Below, piece after piece: positions 448 through 12,342 of a stretch of 43,221 bases of DNA; within the stretch, counting starts at the first letter, position 1, and each line of letters starts with the position of its first letter. Under the pieces are notes generated by a model, which did not search any database, had not been told where the DNA came from, and was given only the letters and a program-made list of their open reading frames with translations. The stretch spans positions 1 through 43,221 of the forward strand of contig JABINZ010000071.1 of assembly GCA_018698135.1 (NCBI GenBank), given 5' to 3'. A program made the position numbers and the translations under genes. This stretch comes from Bacteroidota bacterium. Its GTDB lineage: Bacteria; Bacteroidota; Bacteroidia; CAILMK01; JAAYUY01.

Positions 448-699
448 TTGAAATATGATACTGTTCAAATTATAATTATCGAAATTAGCTTAATGTAAAA
501 CTTAGATTTTCAGTAGCAGCTAGTTGCATTTCTTGAACGACTATTGTTACAAGAAAGCGGATATTTAATAGTTGTGTGTAATCCTCTCTATTTCGTCAGA
601 GAAATAGATTCTCCAAGCGAACGTTTAAGAGTGGAAAATTAATAGTGTATGAGCAAAACAGAATCTATATAATATTAATAATCAGTACGATACAAAAAC
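448..699. other. Non-coding stretch, no gene recognised
   Basis: No ORF, tRNA or known RNA motif is visible between the quinone oxidoreductase and the next small gene. A short hairpin is present around 586-608 (CTATTTC paired with GAAATAG) without a T-run. The stretch ends in AACGTTGTTCC near 697-707, which resembles the right core box (consensus GTTRRRY) that begins an integron cassette. An attC-like left half is not convincing here. Confidence 0.4.
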
Positions 700-721
700 G
701 TTGTTCCAAATTTGAAGAAAG

Positions 722-1102
722 ATGAACTACGAAATTGAAACTGGAACCAATTTAAAATTTACACCTATTAGTAATTTACCTGATGGTTTGATAAAATTCT
801 TGAAAGTATCCTTGAATGAACTTCAGTCAATTGAAGCGTTTACAATAGTTAGCCGAAAAGTAGGAATACTTGGATTGAGAAAAATAATGACTTTATTATT
901 GTTTTACAATGACCAAAACCAATATCAAAAGGATAATATTACGTTAACTAGAGAATTTGAGGATTACTTCAAGACTCAAAACTATTTCATAGACTTGCTG
1001 GCCTTCGATATGAGTATTAAATTTTCTTTAAATTTGATTCAAAAGTTTGAAAATCTTGCAATTGAAATAATTAAAACTACACACAACACCAGCTTCAAAT
1101 AA
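722..1102 (+). CDS. Hypothetical protein, 126 aa, in a cassette-like unit
   Basis: I do not recognise this protein. It is 126 residues, has no signal peptide and no clear membrane segment, and is rich in Phe, Leu, Ile, Asn and Lys, suggesting a small, mostly helical cytosolic protein. The ATG at 722 follows AAAG and lies 22 bases after a GTTGTTC core-like box (700-706). The 3' end of the ORF runs into the left arm of an attC-like hairpin (1081-1147). A short orphan ORF tightly fitted between two such boxes is the usual form of an integron gene cassette. Expression and function cannot be judged from the sequence. Confidence 0.5.
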   Translation: MNYEIETGTNLKFTPISNLPDGLIKFLKVSLNELQSIEAFTIVSRKVGILGLRKIMTLLLFYNDQNQYQKDNITLTREFEDYFKTQNYFIDLLAFDMSIKFSLNLIQKFENLAIEIIKTTHNTSFK

Positions 1103-1147
1103 TACTTCGCTTAACGCTTCGTACTATTAAAAGCTGAACGGTAGGCA
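1081..1147 (+). repeat. attC-like (integron cassette recombination) site between two small genes
   Basis: The segment folds on itself imperfectly: CAGCTT (1090-1095) pairs with AAGCTG (1131-1136) and TAATA (1100-1104) with TATTA (1125-1129), leaving bulges and a loop. The right end reads GAACGGTAGGCAGCA (1136-1150), one base away from the GTTAGGC right core box that typical attC sites carry after GAAC. The left end ACACAAC (1081-1087) would be the partner box. Length (about 67 bp), bulged hairpin and core box fit an attC site; the altered core suggests it may no longer recombine well. No integrase gene is in the window. Confidence 0.45.
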
Positions 1148-1155
1148 GCATAAAA

Positions 1156-1944
1156 GTGAAAAGAACAGGTTTAACCATATTGATAATTATTAGCTGGACA
1201 TTGATCAATGCTCAGGAAGACAAATATGATAGCTTGAAAAGTTATTTTAACGATTTGAATTTTGTTGAGTTTATTGAAGTTGAAGGTTCTTTAAGGATAC
1301 CGAACAAATTAGCAGAGACATTTTTTAAAATAGAATTTAATCCTGAAGAGAATAGATGTTATCCTGTGAAAATATATGAACATTCAAATTATGATATGTT
1401 TCGGGTTAATATTCCATGTGCAGCTGGAGGAATGTGTGAGAAAGAGATTCTAATTATTTTAGATAAAACAGGAAAATTTATTGACCAAATCGAATCAGGT
1501 CATCATTATGAAGATCTGAGTTTTTCTGATTATAAGAATTTTGAAATAAAGGACTCATTGATTATTTGTGAAACAACCTATGAAGAATACAATACTTCAA
1601 GTCAAAAAGTAGAGCATCAAAAAATCGCATATAGTCATTTCATTATATCAGAGAAAGGTATATTGCAAAAAATAGGTCCATTTTATCCACAGAAAAATCG
1701 CAAATATCCATTTACATCAGTCAGACTAATCAGCCAAACAGAGCTTGATTCGATTCCAGAACATGACCTTGATTTAATGAGAAATGAAATTTATGCTGAT
1801 CATGGATATATATTCAAATCTTCAGAATGGAAATTATACTTTGAGTCGAAAGAATGGTATAAACCTTTAGCATCTAATGTTGAATCCAAATTGAACCCGA
1901 TTGAGAAAATAAATATTAGATTAATATTAAAGGAAAAAGAATAA
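1156..1944 (+). CDS. Exported YARHG-domain protein
   Basis: A protein of 262 residues starting at GTG 1156, with an N-terminal signal peptide (basic residues, a hydrophobic stretch around 5-17, cleavage after 'INA'). The C-terminal 60 residues hold a YARHG domain: 'LMRNEIYADHGYIF' followed by an aromatic 'YFESKEWYKP' segment. YARHG domains are found in bacterial cell-surface or periplasmic proteins; their role is unknown. The middle part (about 30-190) has a 'CAAGGMCEKEI' segment with two Cys that could form a disulfide, and is otherwise unrecognised. The gene is bounded by GGTAGGCAGC (1140-1149) and GCTGCCTAAC (1949-1958), near-perfect inverted copies, as expected for a mobile integron cassette. 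Confidence 0.72.
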   Translation: MKRTGLTILIIISWTLINAQEDKYDSLKSYFNDLNFVEFIEVEGSLRIPNKLAETFFKIEFNPEENRCYPVKIYEHSNYDMFRVNIPCAAGGMCEKEILIILDKTGKFIDQIESGHHYEDLSFSDYKNFEIKDSLIICETTYEEYNTSSQKVEHQKIAYSHFIISEKGILQKIGPFYPQKNRKYPFTSVRLISQTELDSIPEHDLDLMRNEIYADHGYIFKSSEWKLYFESKEWYKPLASNVESKLNPIEKINIRLILKEKE

Positions 1945-1947
1945 ATT

Positions 1948-1983
1948 CGCTGCCTAACATGAGCTCCCCTGTATCGTCAAGCA
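1948..1983 (+). repeat. Left half of an attC-like site, apparently truncated
   Basis: CGCTGCCTAAC starts four bases after the YARHG stop codon. GCCTAAC (1952-1958) fits the attC left core consensus RYYYAAC exactly and is the reverse complement of GTTAGGC. It also mirrors, with one mismatch, the GGTAGGCAGC that opens this unit at 1140-1149. The right arm with its GTTRRRY box is not found before or inside the alkD-like gene, so the site looks incomplete. Confidence 0.42.
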
Positions 1984-2670
1984 TTATTTTTTACTCTTCC
2001 GTTCAATCGCTTTCAGTGCTTCTCGTTTACTCAGGCCCGAAAGCTGCTCTTCGTAGCTCTGTACAAAATCGATAACCGATGCAGGATCGGTTTTAGAGTA
2101 TTCACGCAGTGTCCAGCCAATGGCTTTACGAATAAAGAACTCTTTGGAGTGCATTAAGCGTTTGATGTATGAAGTGAGTAAATCAAAATCAGTTTCTTTT
2201 TTATACTTGAGTTGAAAGAGCAAGGCTGAGCGTTGCAACCACATATTTCCTGAACTCATCCATTTTTCTGTATTGGGTATAATTTGTTCAGGAAAACGAA
2301 TGAAATGATAGCCAACCAACCCTGCTGCCAGATGATCTACCGTATCCCACCAACTTTTTTCAGTAATCAGAAATTCGTATACAACAATGTTGCTAGCATC
2401 TGTTTGTTTTTTCATTTTGCCCATTAAGCTAAGGGCGAAAAATTGAAATTCTCTTTCATTCAAATCCCAAAGTTGTTTCACAATTGCTGGATAATCGGCT
2501 ATTGGAGGAAGCCCGTATTCATTAATAAATTGCTTTCCTAATTCTTTCAATTTTGGTCCACGCAAACCAAAAAACCTAAACTGATTGCGCATGTATTTCT
2601 CCATCCAAACTGCATATTCCGGATTAGCATTCGATGAGAATGAATCGATTAATGGTTTTAAATAATTCAT
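1984..2670 (-). CDS. AlkD-like DNA alkylation repair protein
   Basis: 228 residues, the usual size for the AlkD family of HEAT-repeat DNA glycosylases, which remove N3- and N7-alkylated purines without base flipping. Residues known to matter in Bacillus cereus AlkD have visible counterparts: 'WWDTVDHLA' supplies the Trp and Asp pair (Trp109/Asp113 in AlkD), 'LQRSALLFQL' the Arg148 equivalent, and 'AIGWTLREYS' the Trp187 equivalent. The N-terminus has the family's 'RFFGLRGPKLKEL' pattern. It acts on chromosomal DNA in the cytosol. The gene stands alone, convergent with the YARHG cassette gene and divergent from the DHOD-like gene. The start ATG at 2670 follows an AT-rich leader. Confidence 0.9.
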   Translation of the reverse strand: MNYLKPLIDSFSSNANPEYAVWMEKYMRNQFRFFGLRGPKLKELGKQFINEYGLPPIADYPAIVKQLWDLNEREFQFFALSLMGKMKKQTDASNIVVYEFLITEKSWWDTVDHLAAGLVGYHFIRFPEQIIPNTEKWMSSGNMWLQRSALLFQLKYKKETDFDLLTSYIKRLMHSKEFFIRKAIGWTLREYSKTDPASVIDFVQSYEEQLSGLSKREALKAIERKSKK

Positions 2671-3993: not shown

Positions 3994-6240
3994 ATGAGAA
4001 GCGTATTTACACTCCTAATTGGTATTCTGATAATATCAACTACTCAAACTTTAGCGCAAAATGTTTCCCTTTATGCTGGTACACCTAATGTTGCCGGGCA
4101 TAATGCAGTAGGAACAACGCGTTTGAATGCAAAATTTAACAACCCTGTAGGTGTTGCTTTCGACAAAGACGGTTATATGTGGGTGTCGGAATGGTCGAAT
4201 CATACCATTCGTGTAATAGCACCCAGTGGTATGGTTTATACGAAAGCCGGAGCTGTTGGACAAGACTGTTTTGATATTGCAGCAGCAACATCTTCTAAAT
4301 TCAGTAATCCTGCGGGAATTTGTTTTGGACCAGACGATACACTGTATGTGGCAGATTTTGGAAACCATTGTGTTCGTAGAATTGACCCTATGCAGGCATC
4401 CATAGGAAAAGCACTTTGGTGTGGGGTTAAAGCAGGAAAATATTCTGCTCCCGGACCCGGTAATCCTAATTGTTTTACCAGTTACCCCGGACACCGTGAT
4501 GGAACATGGCAAACAGCAAAATTTAAAAATCCTTCTGATGTAGATTGCGATGCAGCTGGTAATATTTATGTAGCTGATCAGGGAAATAATTGTATTCGGA
4601 AAATTGGCATTAATGGCATGGTAACTACTATTGCTGGTATTCCCGATTCAGCCGGTTATGCAGATGGAAATGCTTTGGGTCAAGCTTTGTTTAACTGGCC
4701 AACGGGTATTTACGTCCACACCAATGGAGATATTTATGTAGCAGAATGGCAAAGTCAGGCATTAAGAAAAATATCGGGCGGAAAAGTTTCTACTGTATTA
4801 ATATACCCAACATTGTGGACTCCAAGTGATGTCTACATCGATTCCAGAGGAATTGTTTATGTAAGTGATCAGCATAAAATTGTTCGCTGGGATGGAAACA
4901 AATCGTCAGTGTTTGCCGGTAGTCCTCAAATAAATGTAGCGGGTTATGTTAATGATACTGCTACAGCAGCACGTTTTGATGATACACGCCAAATGGTGGT
5001 CGATCCAAGTGATTATCATTTTGTTTATGTAGCTGATTTTAATAATCATGTTATTCGAAAAATTACCATTTGTGACGATTATAAGCCAAAAGTTACTTTC
5101 GATGTGTCAGGGACAGTTTTCTGTAAAGGAGACCAGCGAACCCTTACCGCTGAAGATGGATATACAGAATATAAATGGTCAACAGGTGAAACGACAAAAA
5201 GCATAGTAGTGACATCTACAAAAACTGTATGGCTTGAAGTACTAAATACTGATTTGTGTAGAGGATATTCCGATACATTTAATTTTGTCGTCAACAATTT
5301 AAAGCCATCTATTACACCAACAGCCACTTCATTTTGTATTGGTGATAGCGCTTTTATAGTTGGGCAGTCGGGATTCGATTATTATACCTGGTATAAAAAC
5401 GGAGTAATTATCATAGAGGGAGTAAATGAGCAAACGCTTACTGTATACGATTCAGGTGATTATTATTTGAAGGTAATATCAGGTCCATGTGTAGGTTCAT
5501 CTGCGCATATAGCTATTTCATTGGGTCAGCTAACACCTGTTTTGAATCATTCAGGAAATAAAGTTATTTGCATAGGCGATAGCCTGATTGTAGAGCCTGT
5601 TAGTAATTTCAATACCTATGAATGGCGAAAAGATGGAAATTTAATCAGCACATCGAAGCAAATTATTGTGAAGGATGCAGGAACCTATACTTTGTTTGCA
5701 GCAAATGCTGCTGGCTGCAATGGAACTTCCCTGAATCTAGTTATTTCAAATTACCCTAAACCACCTAAACCAAGCATAAGCACAAGTGGAGATTCTATAT
5801 TAGTGTCGTCCTCCTTAACAGGAAATCAGTGGTATAGAAATGACACTTTATTGGTTGGTTCAAATTCGCAAGGATATTATGCAACCATACCTGGGTGGTA
5901 CAAAATAGAGGTGTCTAACCAATATGGCTGTAAGTCTACATCCGAGCCATTTCCATTTGGAGGTGTTGGCATGAAGGAAGGAAGTCGGGATAATCAACTC
6001 ATTTTATACCCAAATCCAACAAATGGACAAATCAATATTTCGATTAAAAGCGAAAGAAACGGATTAGCAAATGTGCAAATAAGCAATATGCTTGGAGAAA
6101 TTGTATATGAAAGTCAAATGGATATTCGATACAATCAGCAGCAAAAAGAAATTCAGCTAAACCATCTGGATAAGGGTTTGTATTTCCTCATTTTCAAAAT
6201 GGATGGAATATCCGAAGTCCATAAAATTATCTTAAACTAA
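3994..6240 (+). CDS. Secreted NHL-repeat / Ig-like protein with type IX secretion sorting domain
   Basis: A modular exported protein of 748 residues from ATG 3994; the in-frame TTG at 3973 adds seven residues ahead of an otherwise ideal signal peptide (MRSVFTLLIGILIIS... ending LAQ). Residues about 23-360 form a beta-propeller of NHL repeats, seen as recurring 'FNNPVGVAFDKDGYMWVSE', 'NIYVADQGNNCIRKI' and 'VYVADFNNHVIRKI' units. About 367-665 holds four Ig/PKD-like modules with the pattern 'YKWSTG', 'YTWYKNG', 'YEWRKDG', 'QWYRND'. The last 80 residues are a type A sorting domain, beginning 'LILYPNPTNGQ' and ending in 'KIILN'. Such tails direct export by the type IX system, whose PorU, PorV and GldJ lie at 33-41 kb. 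Ligand unknown. Confidence 0.88.
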   Translation: MRSVFTLLIGILIISTTQTLAQNVSLYAGTPNVAGHNAVGTTRLNAKFNNPVGVAFDKDGYMWVSEWSNHTIRVIAPSGMVYTKAGAVGQDCFDIAAATSSKFSNPAGICFGPDDTLYVADFGNHCVRRIDPMQASIGKALWCGVKAGKYSAPGPGNPNCFTSYPGHRDGTWQTAKFKNPSDVDCDAAGNIYVADQGNNCIRKIGINGMVTTIAGIPDSAGYADGNALGQALFNWPTGIYVHTNGDIYVAEWQSQALRKISGGKVSTVLIYPTLWTPSDVYIDSRGIVYVSDQHKIVRWDGNKSSVFAGSPQINVAGYVNDTATAARFDDTRQMVVDPSDYHFVYVADFNNHVIRKITICDDYKPKVTFDVSGTVFCKGDQRTLTAEDGYTEYKWSTGETTKSIVVTSTKTVWLEVLNTDLCRGYSDTFNFVVNNLKPSITPTATSFCIGDSAFIVGQSGFDYYTWYKNGVIIIEGVNEQTLTVYDSGDYYLKVISGPCVGSSAHIAISLGQLTPVLNHSGNKVICIGDSLIVEPVSNFNTYEWRKDGNLISTSKQIIVKDAGTYTLFAANAAGCNGTSLNLVISNYPKPPKPSISTSGDSILVSSSLTGNQWYRNDTLLVGSNSQGYYATIPGWYKIEVSNQYGCKSTSEPFPFGGVGMKEGSRDNQLILYPNPTNGQINISIKSERNGLANVQISNMLGEIVYESQMDIRYNQQQKEIQLNHLDKGLYFLIFKMDGISEVHKIILN

Positions 6241-6260
6241 TTCAGTTTTTGAATGATCTA

Positions 6261-6290
6261 AAAGGCCTGCTTTGTCAGGTCTTTTTTTTT
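6261..6290 (+). terminator. Rho-independent terminator after the NHL gene
   Basis: AAAGGCCTG (6261-6269) and CAGGTCTTT (6276-6284) pair with one mismatch around TTTGT-like loop bases, followed by an uninterrupted T-run to 6290. Confidence 0.75.
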
Positions 6291-6323
6291 GAGTTTCAAT
6301 TATTTAGTCTGTGTTATTTAATC

Positions 6324-6331
6324 TAACTTTG
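6324..6331 (+). promoter_or_regulatory. Probable -7 element for the nusB operon
   Basis: TAACTTTG matches TAnnTTTG exactly and lies 55 bases before the nusB ATG. No well-spaced TTTG upstream element is visible, so only half of the promoter is supported. Confidence 0.4.
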
Positions 6332-6385
6332 ACCTTTCAAAAATGAGGCATTATTGAATGCCTGGCTTATTTTAACAATTGATTT

Positions 6386-7342
6386 ATGCTCAACAGAAGG
6401 CACATTAGGATTAAGGTAATGCAAGCATTGTATTCCTTTTGGAGTTCAGGGACTGATAAAGAAGAATATCAGGCAGAGAGGGACATGATGAACAGCATAA
6501 ACAAGATGTATGAGCTTTATTTGTTTCTTCTCCTGTTTACCAAAGAGTTATGTTCATTAGCCGAGAAGTACGATAGCGAAGTTCGGGATAACAATATTCC
6601 ATCTGCTCGTGAAATAAATATGCATAAGAATTTTTATACAAATGTTCTTATTGAAAAGCTGGATTCAAGCGAATTACTTGAAAAAGAGTTGAAAAAGTAC
6701 AAGTTGCTATGGGACTCTGAAGATTTGAGTATGTTAAGAAAAGTGTTTGTCAATCTCAAAACCAGCGATGTTTATAAAGATTTCATTTACGAGAAAGATC
6801 CAAAAGAAGAGCAGTTATTTGAATTATTTAGTTTTATCCTGAAACACTATACTGTAAACTTCTCGCTAGTCGATCAGTTTCTGGAAGACAAGTTTTTTAA
6901 TTGGTTGGATGATTCGAAAGTAGCTGTGCAAATGGCTGTGAAAACGTTCAAAAACATATTGTCTGATCCCGAAAATGAAGTTTTTCTTCTTCCACTTTCG
7001 CATGATGATGATGTAAGCTTTAGTTTTGCTAAAGATTTGTTCAAAGAAACAGTGGCCAGAAAAAAAGAGAATGAAGAATTGATTGCTGCAAAAATAGAGA
7101 AATGGGAGCCAAGCCGTATACCACTTCTTGACAGCATTATTTTGCAAATGGGTGTGACTGAGTTTTTATTCTTTGCTAATATACCTGTTAAAGTTACAAT
7201 CAATGAATGTATTGAGTTATCAAAAAATTACAGTACACCAAACAGCAAAAAGTTTATAAATGGGGTATTGGATAATTTGCTAATTGATTTTGAAAAGGAA
7301 AAAAGAATAAATAAGAAGGGAATTGGACTGATTGATAAATAG
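6386..7342 (+). CDS. nusB: Transcription antitermination factor NusB (long Bacteroidota form)
   Basis: 318 residues, about twice the E. coli length, as is usual in Bacteroidota. The N-terminus has the family opening 'LNRRHIRIKVMQALYSFW', and the C-terminal half carries the NusB core: 'RIPLLDSIILQMGVTEFLF', 'IPVKVTINECIELSKNYS' and 'KKFINGVLDNLL'. NusB binds boxA RNA with NusE (S10) and takes part in antitermination of rRNA operons. It is the first gene of a six-gene run that ends with coaE; the next ORF starts 38 bases after its stop. The role of the inserted middle region (about 60-190) is unknown. The match at both ends is strong. Confidence 0.94.
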   Translation: MLNRRHIRIKVMQALYSFWSSGTDKEEYQAERDMMNSINKMYELYLFLLLFTKELCSLAEKYDSEVRDNNIPSAREINMHKNFYTNVLIEKLDSSELLEKELKKYKLLWDSEDLSMLRKVFVNLKTSDVYKDFIYEKDPKEEQLFELFSFILKHYTVNFSLVDQFLEDKFFNWLDDSKVAVQMAVKTFKNILSDPENEVFLLPLSHDDDVSFSFAKDLFKETVARKKENEELIAAKIEKWEPSRIPLLDSIILQMGVTEFLFFANIPVKVTINECIELSKNYSTPNSKKFINGVLDNLLIDFEKEKRINKKGIGLIDK

Positions 7343-10383: not shown

Positions 10384-12342
10384 ATGAGCGAAAATCAAGT
10401 AAAAGATAACAGCCAATATACAGCTGATAATATACAAGTTTTAGAGGGGTTGGAAGCAGTTCGAAAAAGACCTGCTATGTACATTGGTGATATTAGCACC
10501 CGAGGCTTACATCATTTGGTTTATGAAGTAGTCGATAACTCAATTGACGAGGCACTTGCCGGACATTGTGATGAAATTCATACTATCATTCATGAAGACA
10601 ATTCCATTACTGTACAAGATAATGGTAGAGGAATTCCGGTTGAAGAGCATACTAAAGAAAAAAGATCAGCCTTAGAGGTTGTAATGACCGTATTACATGC
10701 TGGTGGTAAATTTGACAAAGATTCCTATAAAGTATCTGGCGGTTTGCATGGTGTTGGTGTTTCTTGTGTAAATGCTTTATCAAAACATTTGAAAGCTGAA
10801 ATACATCGAGATGGGCATGTTTATATGCAGGAATATGAATGTGGCAAACCAATGTATACTGTAAAAGAAATGGGTAAGTCCGATAAAACGGGTACTTATG
10901 TTACTTTTAAACCTGATGATAGCATTTTTCAGGTTCTTGAATACAAATTTGATACGCTTAGAACTCGATTAAAAGAACTTTCATATTTAAATAAAGGGGT
11001 AAAACTCAGTCTTAAAGATTTACGTGAACATGAAAATGGAAATGGGCCTCGCTTTGAAGAGTATTATTCTGAAGGTGGCTTGTCTGAATTTGTTCAGTTT
11101 ATTGATAAAACAAGAGATTCTTTAATTCCAGAGCCAATTTATTTTGAAGGAGAAAAGAATGGAGTTCCTATTGACATTGCCTTTCAATATAATACATCCT
11201 ATAATGAGAACCTTCATTCTTATGTGAATAATATCAATACAATAGAGGGTGGAACTCATATTTCAGGTTTCAGAAGATCATTGACCCGTAGTTTTAAAAA
11301 CTATGCAGAGAAAGAAGGACTTTTGAAAAATGTTAAATTCGAAATAAGTGGAGATGATTTTCGTGAAGGATTAACAGCTGTATTGTCTGTTAAAATTGCT
11401 GAACCACAGTTTGAGGGACAAACGAAAACTAAACTTGGTAATTCGGAAGCCATGGGAGCAGTCGATAGTTTTGTTACCGAAGCACTAAATGCTTATTTAG
11501 ATGAGCATCCAAAAGAAGGGCGTCTCATTGTAAATAAAGTTGTATTATCAGCACAGGCACGTCATGCAGCACGCAAAGCACGTGAAATGGTGCAGCGAAA
11601 AAGGGGATTTAACTCAGCCGGATTACCTGGGAAATTAGCTGATTGTTCGTCAAGCGATCCTTCTATTTGTGAATTGTATTTGGTTGAGGGAGATTCAGCG
11701 GGAGGAACAGCAAAGCAAGGAAGAAACCGACAGTTTCAAGCTATTTTACCACTTAGAGGAAAAATTCTGAATGTTGAAAAAGCCTTAGAGCATAAGATAT
11801 ACGATAACGAGGAAATTAAAAATCTGTTTACCGCATTAGGCGTTCATATTGGAACAGAAGAGGATGACAAAGCCCTGAATATGGATAAGCTTCGTTATCA
11901 CAAAGTTATCATCATGACTGATGCCGATGTTGATGGTAGTCATATCACTACATTGATTCTCACTTTACTCTACCGCTACATGAAAAAACTGATAGAAAGT
12001 GGTTATGTATATATTGCAACACCTCCATTATATTTAGTCAAAAAAGGCAGCCAGGAACAATATTGCTGGAATGATGATGAAAGAGATTTAGCTATTCAGC
12101 GAATGAAAGGCGAGGGGAAAGAGAGTTCTGTTAATATTCAGCGTTACAAAGGTTTGGGTGAAATGAATGCTGAGCAGCTTTGGAAAACAACCATGGATCC
12201 TGATCGAAGAACCTTGCGTTTAGTGAATATTGAAAATGCAGCGGAATCGGATCGTATTTTTTCGATGTTAATGGGAGATGAGGTTGCACCTCGAAGAGAG
12301 TTTATCGAGCAAAATGCTCGATATGCAAATATTGATGTGTAA
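10384..12342 (+). CDS. gyrB: DNA gyrase subunit B
   Basis: 652 residues, the normal size for GyrB outside the enterobacteria. The GHKL ATPase domain (about 1-220) shows 'YIGDISTRGLHHLVYEVVDN', 'DNGRGIPVEEH' and 'GGLHGVGVSCVNALS'. The transducer domain has 'QTKTKLGNSE' near 345. The TOPRIM domain (about 430-545) carries 'LVEGDSAGGTAKQGR' and the metal-binding 'MTDADVDGSHI'. The C-terminus has 'QRYKGLGEMNAEQLW'. GyrB powers ATP-dependent negative supercoiling with GyrA, which is not in this window. The gene has its own 110-base upstream region and converges on gldH, 20 bases apart. Confidence 0.98.
   Translation: MSENQVKDNSQYTADNIQVLEGLEAVRKRPAMYIGDISTRGLHHLVYEVVDNSIDEALAGHCDEIHTIIHEDNSITVQDNGRGIPVEEHTKEKRSALEVVMTVLHAGGKFDKDSYKVSGGLHGVGVSCVNALSKHLKAEIHRDGHVYMQEYECGKPMYTVKEMGKSDKTGTYVTFKPDDSIFQVLEYKFDTLRTRLKELSYLNKGVKLSLKDLREHENGNGPRFEEYYSEGGLSEFVQFIDKTRDSLIPEPIYFEGEKNGVPIDIAFQYNTSYNENLHSYVNNINTIEGGTHISGFRRSLTRSFKNYAEKEGLLKNVKFEISGDDFREGLTAVLSVKIAEPQFEGQTKTKLGNSEAMGAVDSFVTEALNAYLDEHPKEGRLIVNKVVLSAQARHAARKAREMVQRKRGFNSAGLPGKLADCSSSDPSICELYLVEGDSAGGTAKQGRNRQFQAILPLRGKILNVEKALEHKIYDNEEIKNLFTALGVHIGTEEDDKALNMDKLRYHKVIIMTDADVDGSHITTLILTLLYRYMKKLIESGYVYIATPPLYLVKKGSQEQYCWNDDERDLAIQRMKGEGKESSVNIQRYKGLGEMNAEQLWKTTMDPDRRTLRLVNIENAAESDRIFSMLMGDEVAPRREFIEQNARYANIDV

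Follow-up and report, generated by a model that had tools for sequence, protein, structure and literature searches.

A decaying gene cassette array fragment in a Bacteroidota chromosome and a probable integron lineage of Bacteroidia with a recombinase other than IntI

Background

Integrons are defined and searched for via their integrase, IntI. The arrays considered here share many features with canonical integrons, both class 1 and sedentary chromosomal: inverse end boxes of the cassettes, cores of the RYYYAAC/GTTRRRY type, attC hairpins, an attI site beside a tyrosine recombinase gene with apparent insertion at G|TT, and a cargo of toxin-antitoxin genes. The recombinase, however, lacks a segment of about 45 residues found in IntI, scores below the IntI cut-off and carries an extra N-terminal domain, while its gene is mostly co-oriented with the cassettes and attI lies past its stop codon. 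In the integrons of Treponema the recombinase gene is likewise read towards attI, co-directionally with the cassettes (PMC3607928), but Treponema bears a true intI. The additional domain specific to IntI is credited to Messier and Roy (2001) in the passage of PMC2426708 that cites them. A classification of tyrosine recombinases regards this insertion as essential for integron function and yet finds it not fully conserved in an integron-like subgroup, and therefore the subgroup may already include some proteins related to the present family (PMC8138268).

Two other groups of recombinases call for comparison. IS91-associated tyrosine integrases of Bacteroidota have a related catalytic domain and are often found near arrays, but they form a separate clade, lack the N-terminal domain and have a Y2 transposase gene downstream. 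XerA resolves chromosome dimers. A member of this group (PDB 5hxy) is the best structural match to the family described here, whose scores straddle the cut-off of the corresponding NCBIfam entry, NF040815; the present family differs in its link to cassette arrays and in its added N-terminal domain. For Bacteroidetes, work with IntegronFinder 2.0 reported at first In0 only and later one complete integron, in Salinibacter (PMC9024848). In our search of freely accessible journal articles, arrays of Bacteroidia with an integrase other than IntI were nowhere described.

Two gene cassettes in the window

The window, i.e. the whole stretch of 43,221 nucleotides that was analysed, is an entire contig (C71) of a 4.2 Mb genome assembly in 287 contigs, which belongs to the class Bacteroidia and is 97% complete. 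Positions 1-333 overlap the end of another contig, C43, at 98.8% identity, a dovetail that points to variation between strains or to repeated sequence where the contigs break. The first-pass annotation had read two small genes as integron-type cassettes at a degraded array end. The inverse end boxes support this reading, and sequence comparison confirmed both genes as real integron-type gene cassettes (Table 1). An Rfam scan of the window matched nothing.

Table 1. Features of the array fragment and its chromosomal flank, in positions of the window
Feature	Position	Strand	Remarks
attI-like element, 122 bp, putative insertion point G|TT at 571	452..573	+	second copy at C43:3091-3212, 82% identical; homology stops exactly at GTT
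Gene cassette A	571..1139	+	inverse end boxes and attC at 3' end
5' box (R') of cassette A, GTTGTGTGTA	571..580	+	exact inverse of TACACACAAC at 1078-1087
ORF of cassette A, 126 aa, no assigned function	722..1102	+	stop falls inside attC
attC between cassettes A and B	1080..1146	+	R'' 1081-1087; R' from 1140, altered GGTAGGC; repeats at 85-93% identity elsewhere in genome; model R1
Gene cassette B	1140..~1958	+	end boxes inverse at 9/10 bases
YARHG-domain ORF of cassette B, 262 aa	1156..1944	+	Pfam PF13308, E 2.5e-18
R'' box of last attC, GCTGCCTAAC	1949..1958	+	no hairpin after; right half gone
AlkD-type DNA alkylation repair gene	1984..2670	-	chromosomal flank; Pfam PF08713; G006 neighbourhood the same without cassettes

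Integron cassettes carry at their 5' end the inverse of the box at their 3' end. This rule holds for 10/10 bases in cassette A, for 9/10 in cassette B and three times for 10/10 in contig C31 of the same genome; in a positive control, the class 1 integron on plasmid pCB58, inverse ends of 10/10 were recovered at four cassettes. A match such as that of cassette A arose by chance in 14 of 20,000 Markov shuffles, and one such as that of cassette B, with one mismatch allowed and within 2.3 kb, in 55 of 4000. The ten-base word is common genome-wide (58 matches with at most one mismatch in the whole genome, against 46 for the reversed control), and therefore weight rests on its position rather than on its sequence alone.

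On careful comparison, most of what had been noticed at first could be retained. The boxes at 1140-1149 (GGTAGGCAGC) and 1949-1958 exist and are inverse with one mismatch, the ORF of cassette A does terminate within the hairpin, and the last attC ends at its R'' box (1952-1958), with no right arm after it. For the first cassette the first-pass annotation had chosen as start a GTTGTTC near 700, which is off by 130 bp. That position is ruled out as the edge of cassette A by the exact ten-base inverse of the R'' end at 571-580, and it is 571, not 701, that resembles attI sites. Against Pfam, the ORF of cassette A gave FANCI_HD1 alone, below the cut-off.

With a matrix derived from the attI regions of other genomes, the 14 bases preceding 571 fall within the top 0.11% of GTT sites. 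The cassettes downstream of GTT differ between C71 and C43, and if insertion takes place at G|TT, homology between the two attI-like elements is expected to stop at GTT, as it does. A recombinase gene is present beside neither copy. Positions 452-1958 are best read as a partly decayed fragment of an integron-type array, with an attI-like site, two cassettes, one attC and one half attC. Such a fragment resembles a CALIN, a cluster of attC sites that lacks an integron integrase, in consisting of attC and cassettes without an adjacent intI. It may differ in the number of sites, since a CALIN requires at least two attC sites within 4 kb and no integron integrase nearby; the window has one complete attC and a half site, C43, which overlaps the start of the window, has a second, decayed site, and there is no intI. 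It also differs in that the genome bears candidate integrases of another family.

Synteny of both small genes in close relatives, named beforehand as an observation that would speak against cassettes, was not found in a genome of the same genus, G006. There the homologues of the surface-protein gene of C43 and of the AlkD gene are 62 bp apart, and both cassettes are missing from the interval. The cassettes are thus part of an insertion of ~5.6 kb relative to G006, a length summed over C43 and C71 that also contains genes which are not evident cassettes. In the reverse complement of C43, a stretch of ~100 bp (10560-10660) located upstream of an NmrA-like ORF resembles the start of contig C31 (1-160).

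The attC hairpin and its copies in the same genome

The hairpin proposed near 1081-1147 is present and recurs in the genome, and its right core is altered as had been described. Folded as the top strand it is no better than shuffled sequences (z -0.05). The fold of the bottom strand is somewhat better (z -1.84), with 11 of 200 shuffles doing equally well. Copies were found at five further places, in C211, C31 and C59 by BLAST and additionally in C134 and C43 by a covariance model (R1, built from four training sequences including the window attC itself); some of them are decayed. C31 provides the clearest array, with perfect 10-bp cassette ends at 897-2610, 4030-4941 and 4995-5764. The last two of these cassettes bear toxin-antitoxin-like genes and have a hairpin copy between them, and by our own reading a Fic-like ORF lies between attC sites. 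On C211 a cassette at 569-1454 has ends matching at 9/9 bases; a large serine-recombinase-like ORF (5309-6919) is found on the same small contig.

Six related copies scattered in one genome, some of them decayed, could also be expected of a dispersed repeat of the REP or MITE kind that has no part in recombination. We give this explanation hardly any weight. A dispersed repeat would not predict inverse cassette ends or homology stopping at GTT, nor would it predict toxin-antitoxin genes packed between the sites or identical DNA after different recombinase genes (described below).

The short attC subtype of the window gave two chance matches only in a collection of genome contigs, and none in viral contigs or in 11 other genomes of the order; covariation within this subtype is weak. 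The window attC is damaged, is not matched by the model of Bacteroidia attC sites introduced below, and may be inactive.

Cassette arrays in other Bacteroidia

Textbook cassette arrays were met in other Bacteroidia while the recombinase encoded beside the C31 array was being tested as the integrase. The gene lies 18 bp from the last R'' box of the array and several of its relatives adjoin arrays, which would suit an IS91-type accessory recombinase that moves cassettes. Such a role appears very unlikely, since most homologous loci have an IS91-type transposase gene immediately after it (in C31 the array follows instead), the protein belongs to a separate clade with full support, and recombinases of this type mark the ends or interiors of arrays and not their starts. 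The C31 recombinase was accordingly rejected as cassette integrase, being IS91-type. Among ten-base inverse pairs in the flanks of IS91-type genes, GTT did no better than control trinucleotides, and inverse pairs without attC were therefore not trusted. Roughly half of the examined loci have an IS91-type accessory integrase gene beside or inside the array (L013, L086, L088, L089, L090, L092, L097, L098, L103, L104), and an insertion preference is possible. In a genome of the same family as the host (G005:C230, 5068-5915), an IS91-type element adjoins a cassette with end boxes matching at 10/10 bases, whose ORF reads like a class D beta-lactamase.

Eight Bacteroidia attC sites of ~132 bp were used to construct a second covariance model, R2. 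Their structure is conserved: 93.8% of cells are paired, 15 of 20 pairs show double changes, and double changes occupy 42 cells as compared to 13.8 in shuffles. Scoring at most eight candidates per genome, we found R2 matches in 265 of 395 sampled Bacteroidia genomes (E <= 0.001), with three sites in C31 of the window's own genome. Random windows from the same genomes, 400 kb in total, yielded two strong matches, which share a single window from a genome that carries arrays. Canonical IntI (TIGR02249) exceeded its cut-off in one of the 395 genomes. This sole IntI (G149:C40, 3295-4542) has no R2 site within the surrounding 14 kb.

A recombinase family at array starts

One tyrosine recombinase family stands at array starts in Bacteroidia. 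A family HMM, in whose training many members were included, gives its members ~300-546 bits, IS91-type proteins 205-291, one IntI 230 and two Xer-type proteins 157-190. By raw counts that ignore kinship, the family occurs in 189 of the 395 genomes, 172 of which have R2 sites too; at the strict threshold, 93 genomes with R2 sites have no family member, and in 17 others the gene occurs but R2 sites do not. When loci were picked by recombinase and contig size only, R2 sites were present in 13/20, as against 1/20 control windows (p = 1.4e-4). We compared 24 array loci, about half of them chosen for a nearby array. In 18 the recombinase gene has, no more than 160 bp away, the inverse of the R'' end of the first attC; mismatched pairs gave this in 3 of 552 cases. 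The gene is co-oriented with the cassettes in 21 of the 24. The order recombinase gene, attI, first cassette is found in 18 of these 24 arrays and in contigs C250 and C241 of the host genome, and is not seen beside the window fragment.

The fragment had been described as lacking an integrase, which is correct locally, and no IntI above the family cut-off exists anywhere in the assembly; the description fails for the genome as a whole, in which C250 and C241 each carry a recombinase of the array-start family. GTTGGTG begins 39 and 70 bp, respectively, after these two genes. From GTT onward all 139 shared bases are identical, whereas the preceding 70 bases match at 23 positions only. A third copy of the 139 bp (C251:55505-55643) is preceded by what is left of the 3' end of a C250-like gene and by a related attI; this assemblage lies downstream of an ORF reading like translation factor IF-2. 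Each of the three contigs stops within the repeat, where an assembly would be expected to break, and since its 3' end is not assembled, the identity of the repeat as a cassette rests on position. We regard the 139-bp identity from GTT as the observation that points most directly to insertion of cassettes at G|TT next to members of this family. The G|TT insertion point agrees both with the homology that ends at GTT (C71 and C43) and with the identity that begins there.

An ordinary IntI, since lost, unassembled or foreign, may instead have made the cassettes and left them stranded as a CALIN, the Bacteroidia recombinase being an unrelated neighbour. Elsewhere among bacteria, CALINs are often found with no intI nearby (PMC8618304, PMC9668308), the assembly is 97% complete, and the form of attC and the G|TT junction do not differ from those of IntI integrons. 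We nevertheless consider this origin unlikely. A single genome with IntI above the cut-off stands against 265 with attC sites, one recombinase family occupies the array starts with the first cassette box adjoining, and the host genome shows recent identical insertions beside two members of that family.

Features of the recombinase

The catalytic residues R235, K260, H324, R327, H350 and Y359 (numbering of the C250 protein) are invariant in 28/28 aligned members, and the IntI segment of ~45 residues is absent from all 28. Correspondingly, positions ~180-238 of TIGR02249 have no match in the family proteins, and nine members score 181-211 bits against this model, below the IntI cut-off of 265 bits. 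With NF040815 the scores are 198-234 bits, around the cut-off of 220. The AlphaFold model of the C250 protein (mean pLDDT 85.6) has XerA and integron integrases as its top structural matches, and its N-terminal domain of ~75 residues is confidently folded. A fold search with this domain returned nothing significant (YciH, E 0.05; HARP of SMARCAL1, 4o66, E 0.14), and in the C241 protein Pfam HARP falls just below the cut-off. That the domain plays a role in attC recognition is a guess. The branching order of the recombinase family, IntI and the IS91 integrases is not settled in the tree, and hence we make no claim of ancestry among them.

Conclusions

The window probably holds a decaying two-cassette fragment of a Bacteroidota integron run by an integrase other than IntI, whose catalysis we infer from sequence. 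With somewhat less confidence, we favour the view that Bacteroidia have a widespread integron lineage of their own, with a recombinase without the IntI insertion, in which the N-terminal domain may take over recognition of the folded single-stranded attC. The recombinase, XerA/IntI-like with its extra N-terminal domain, would recognise attC in this form and release cassettes as circles, which would then be inserted at G|TT of an attI beside the recombinase gene, usually just past the stop codon. The copy in the window has no adjacent recombinase gene, and of its last attC only the left half is left. Counted against this reading are the report that the IntI insertion is essential (PMC8138268), the 93 genomes with R2 sites and no family gene at the strict threshold, the 17 with the gene and no R2 sites, the damaged state of the window attC, which R2 does not match, and the weak covariation of its short subtype.

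Bacteroidia, a major class of bacteria, appear to possess a gene-capture system of their own that has remained largely unrecognised, with arrays in most of the sampled genomes. Should arrays with a different integrase be present in half to two thirds of Bacteroidia genomes, then a large pool of gene exchange has gone largely unrecorded, its cargo including toxin-antitoxin genes in the genome studied here and a beta-lactamase-like ORF in a relative. The system would also make it directly testable whether recombination at folded single-stranded sites needs the IntI-specific domain.
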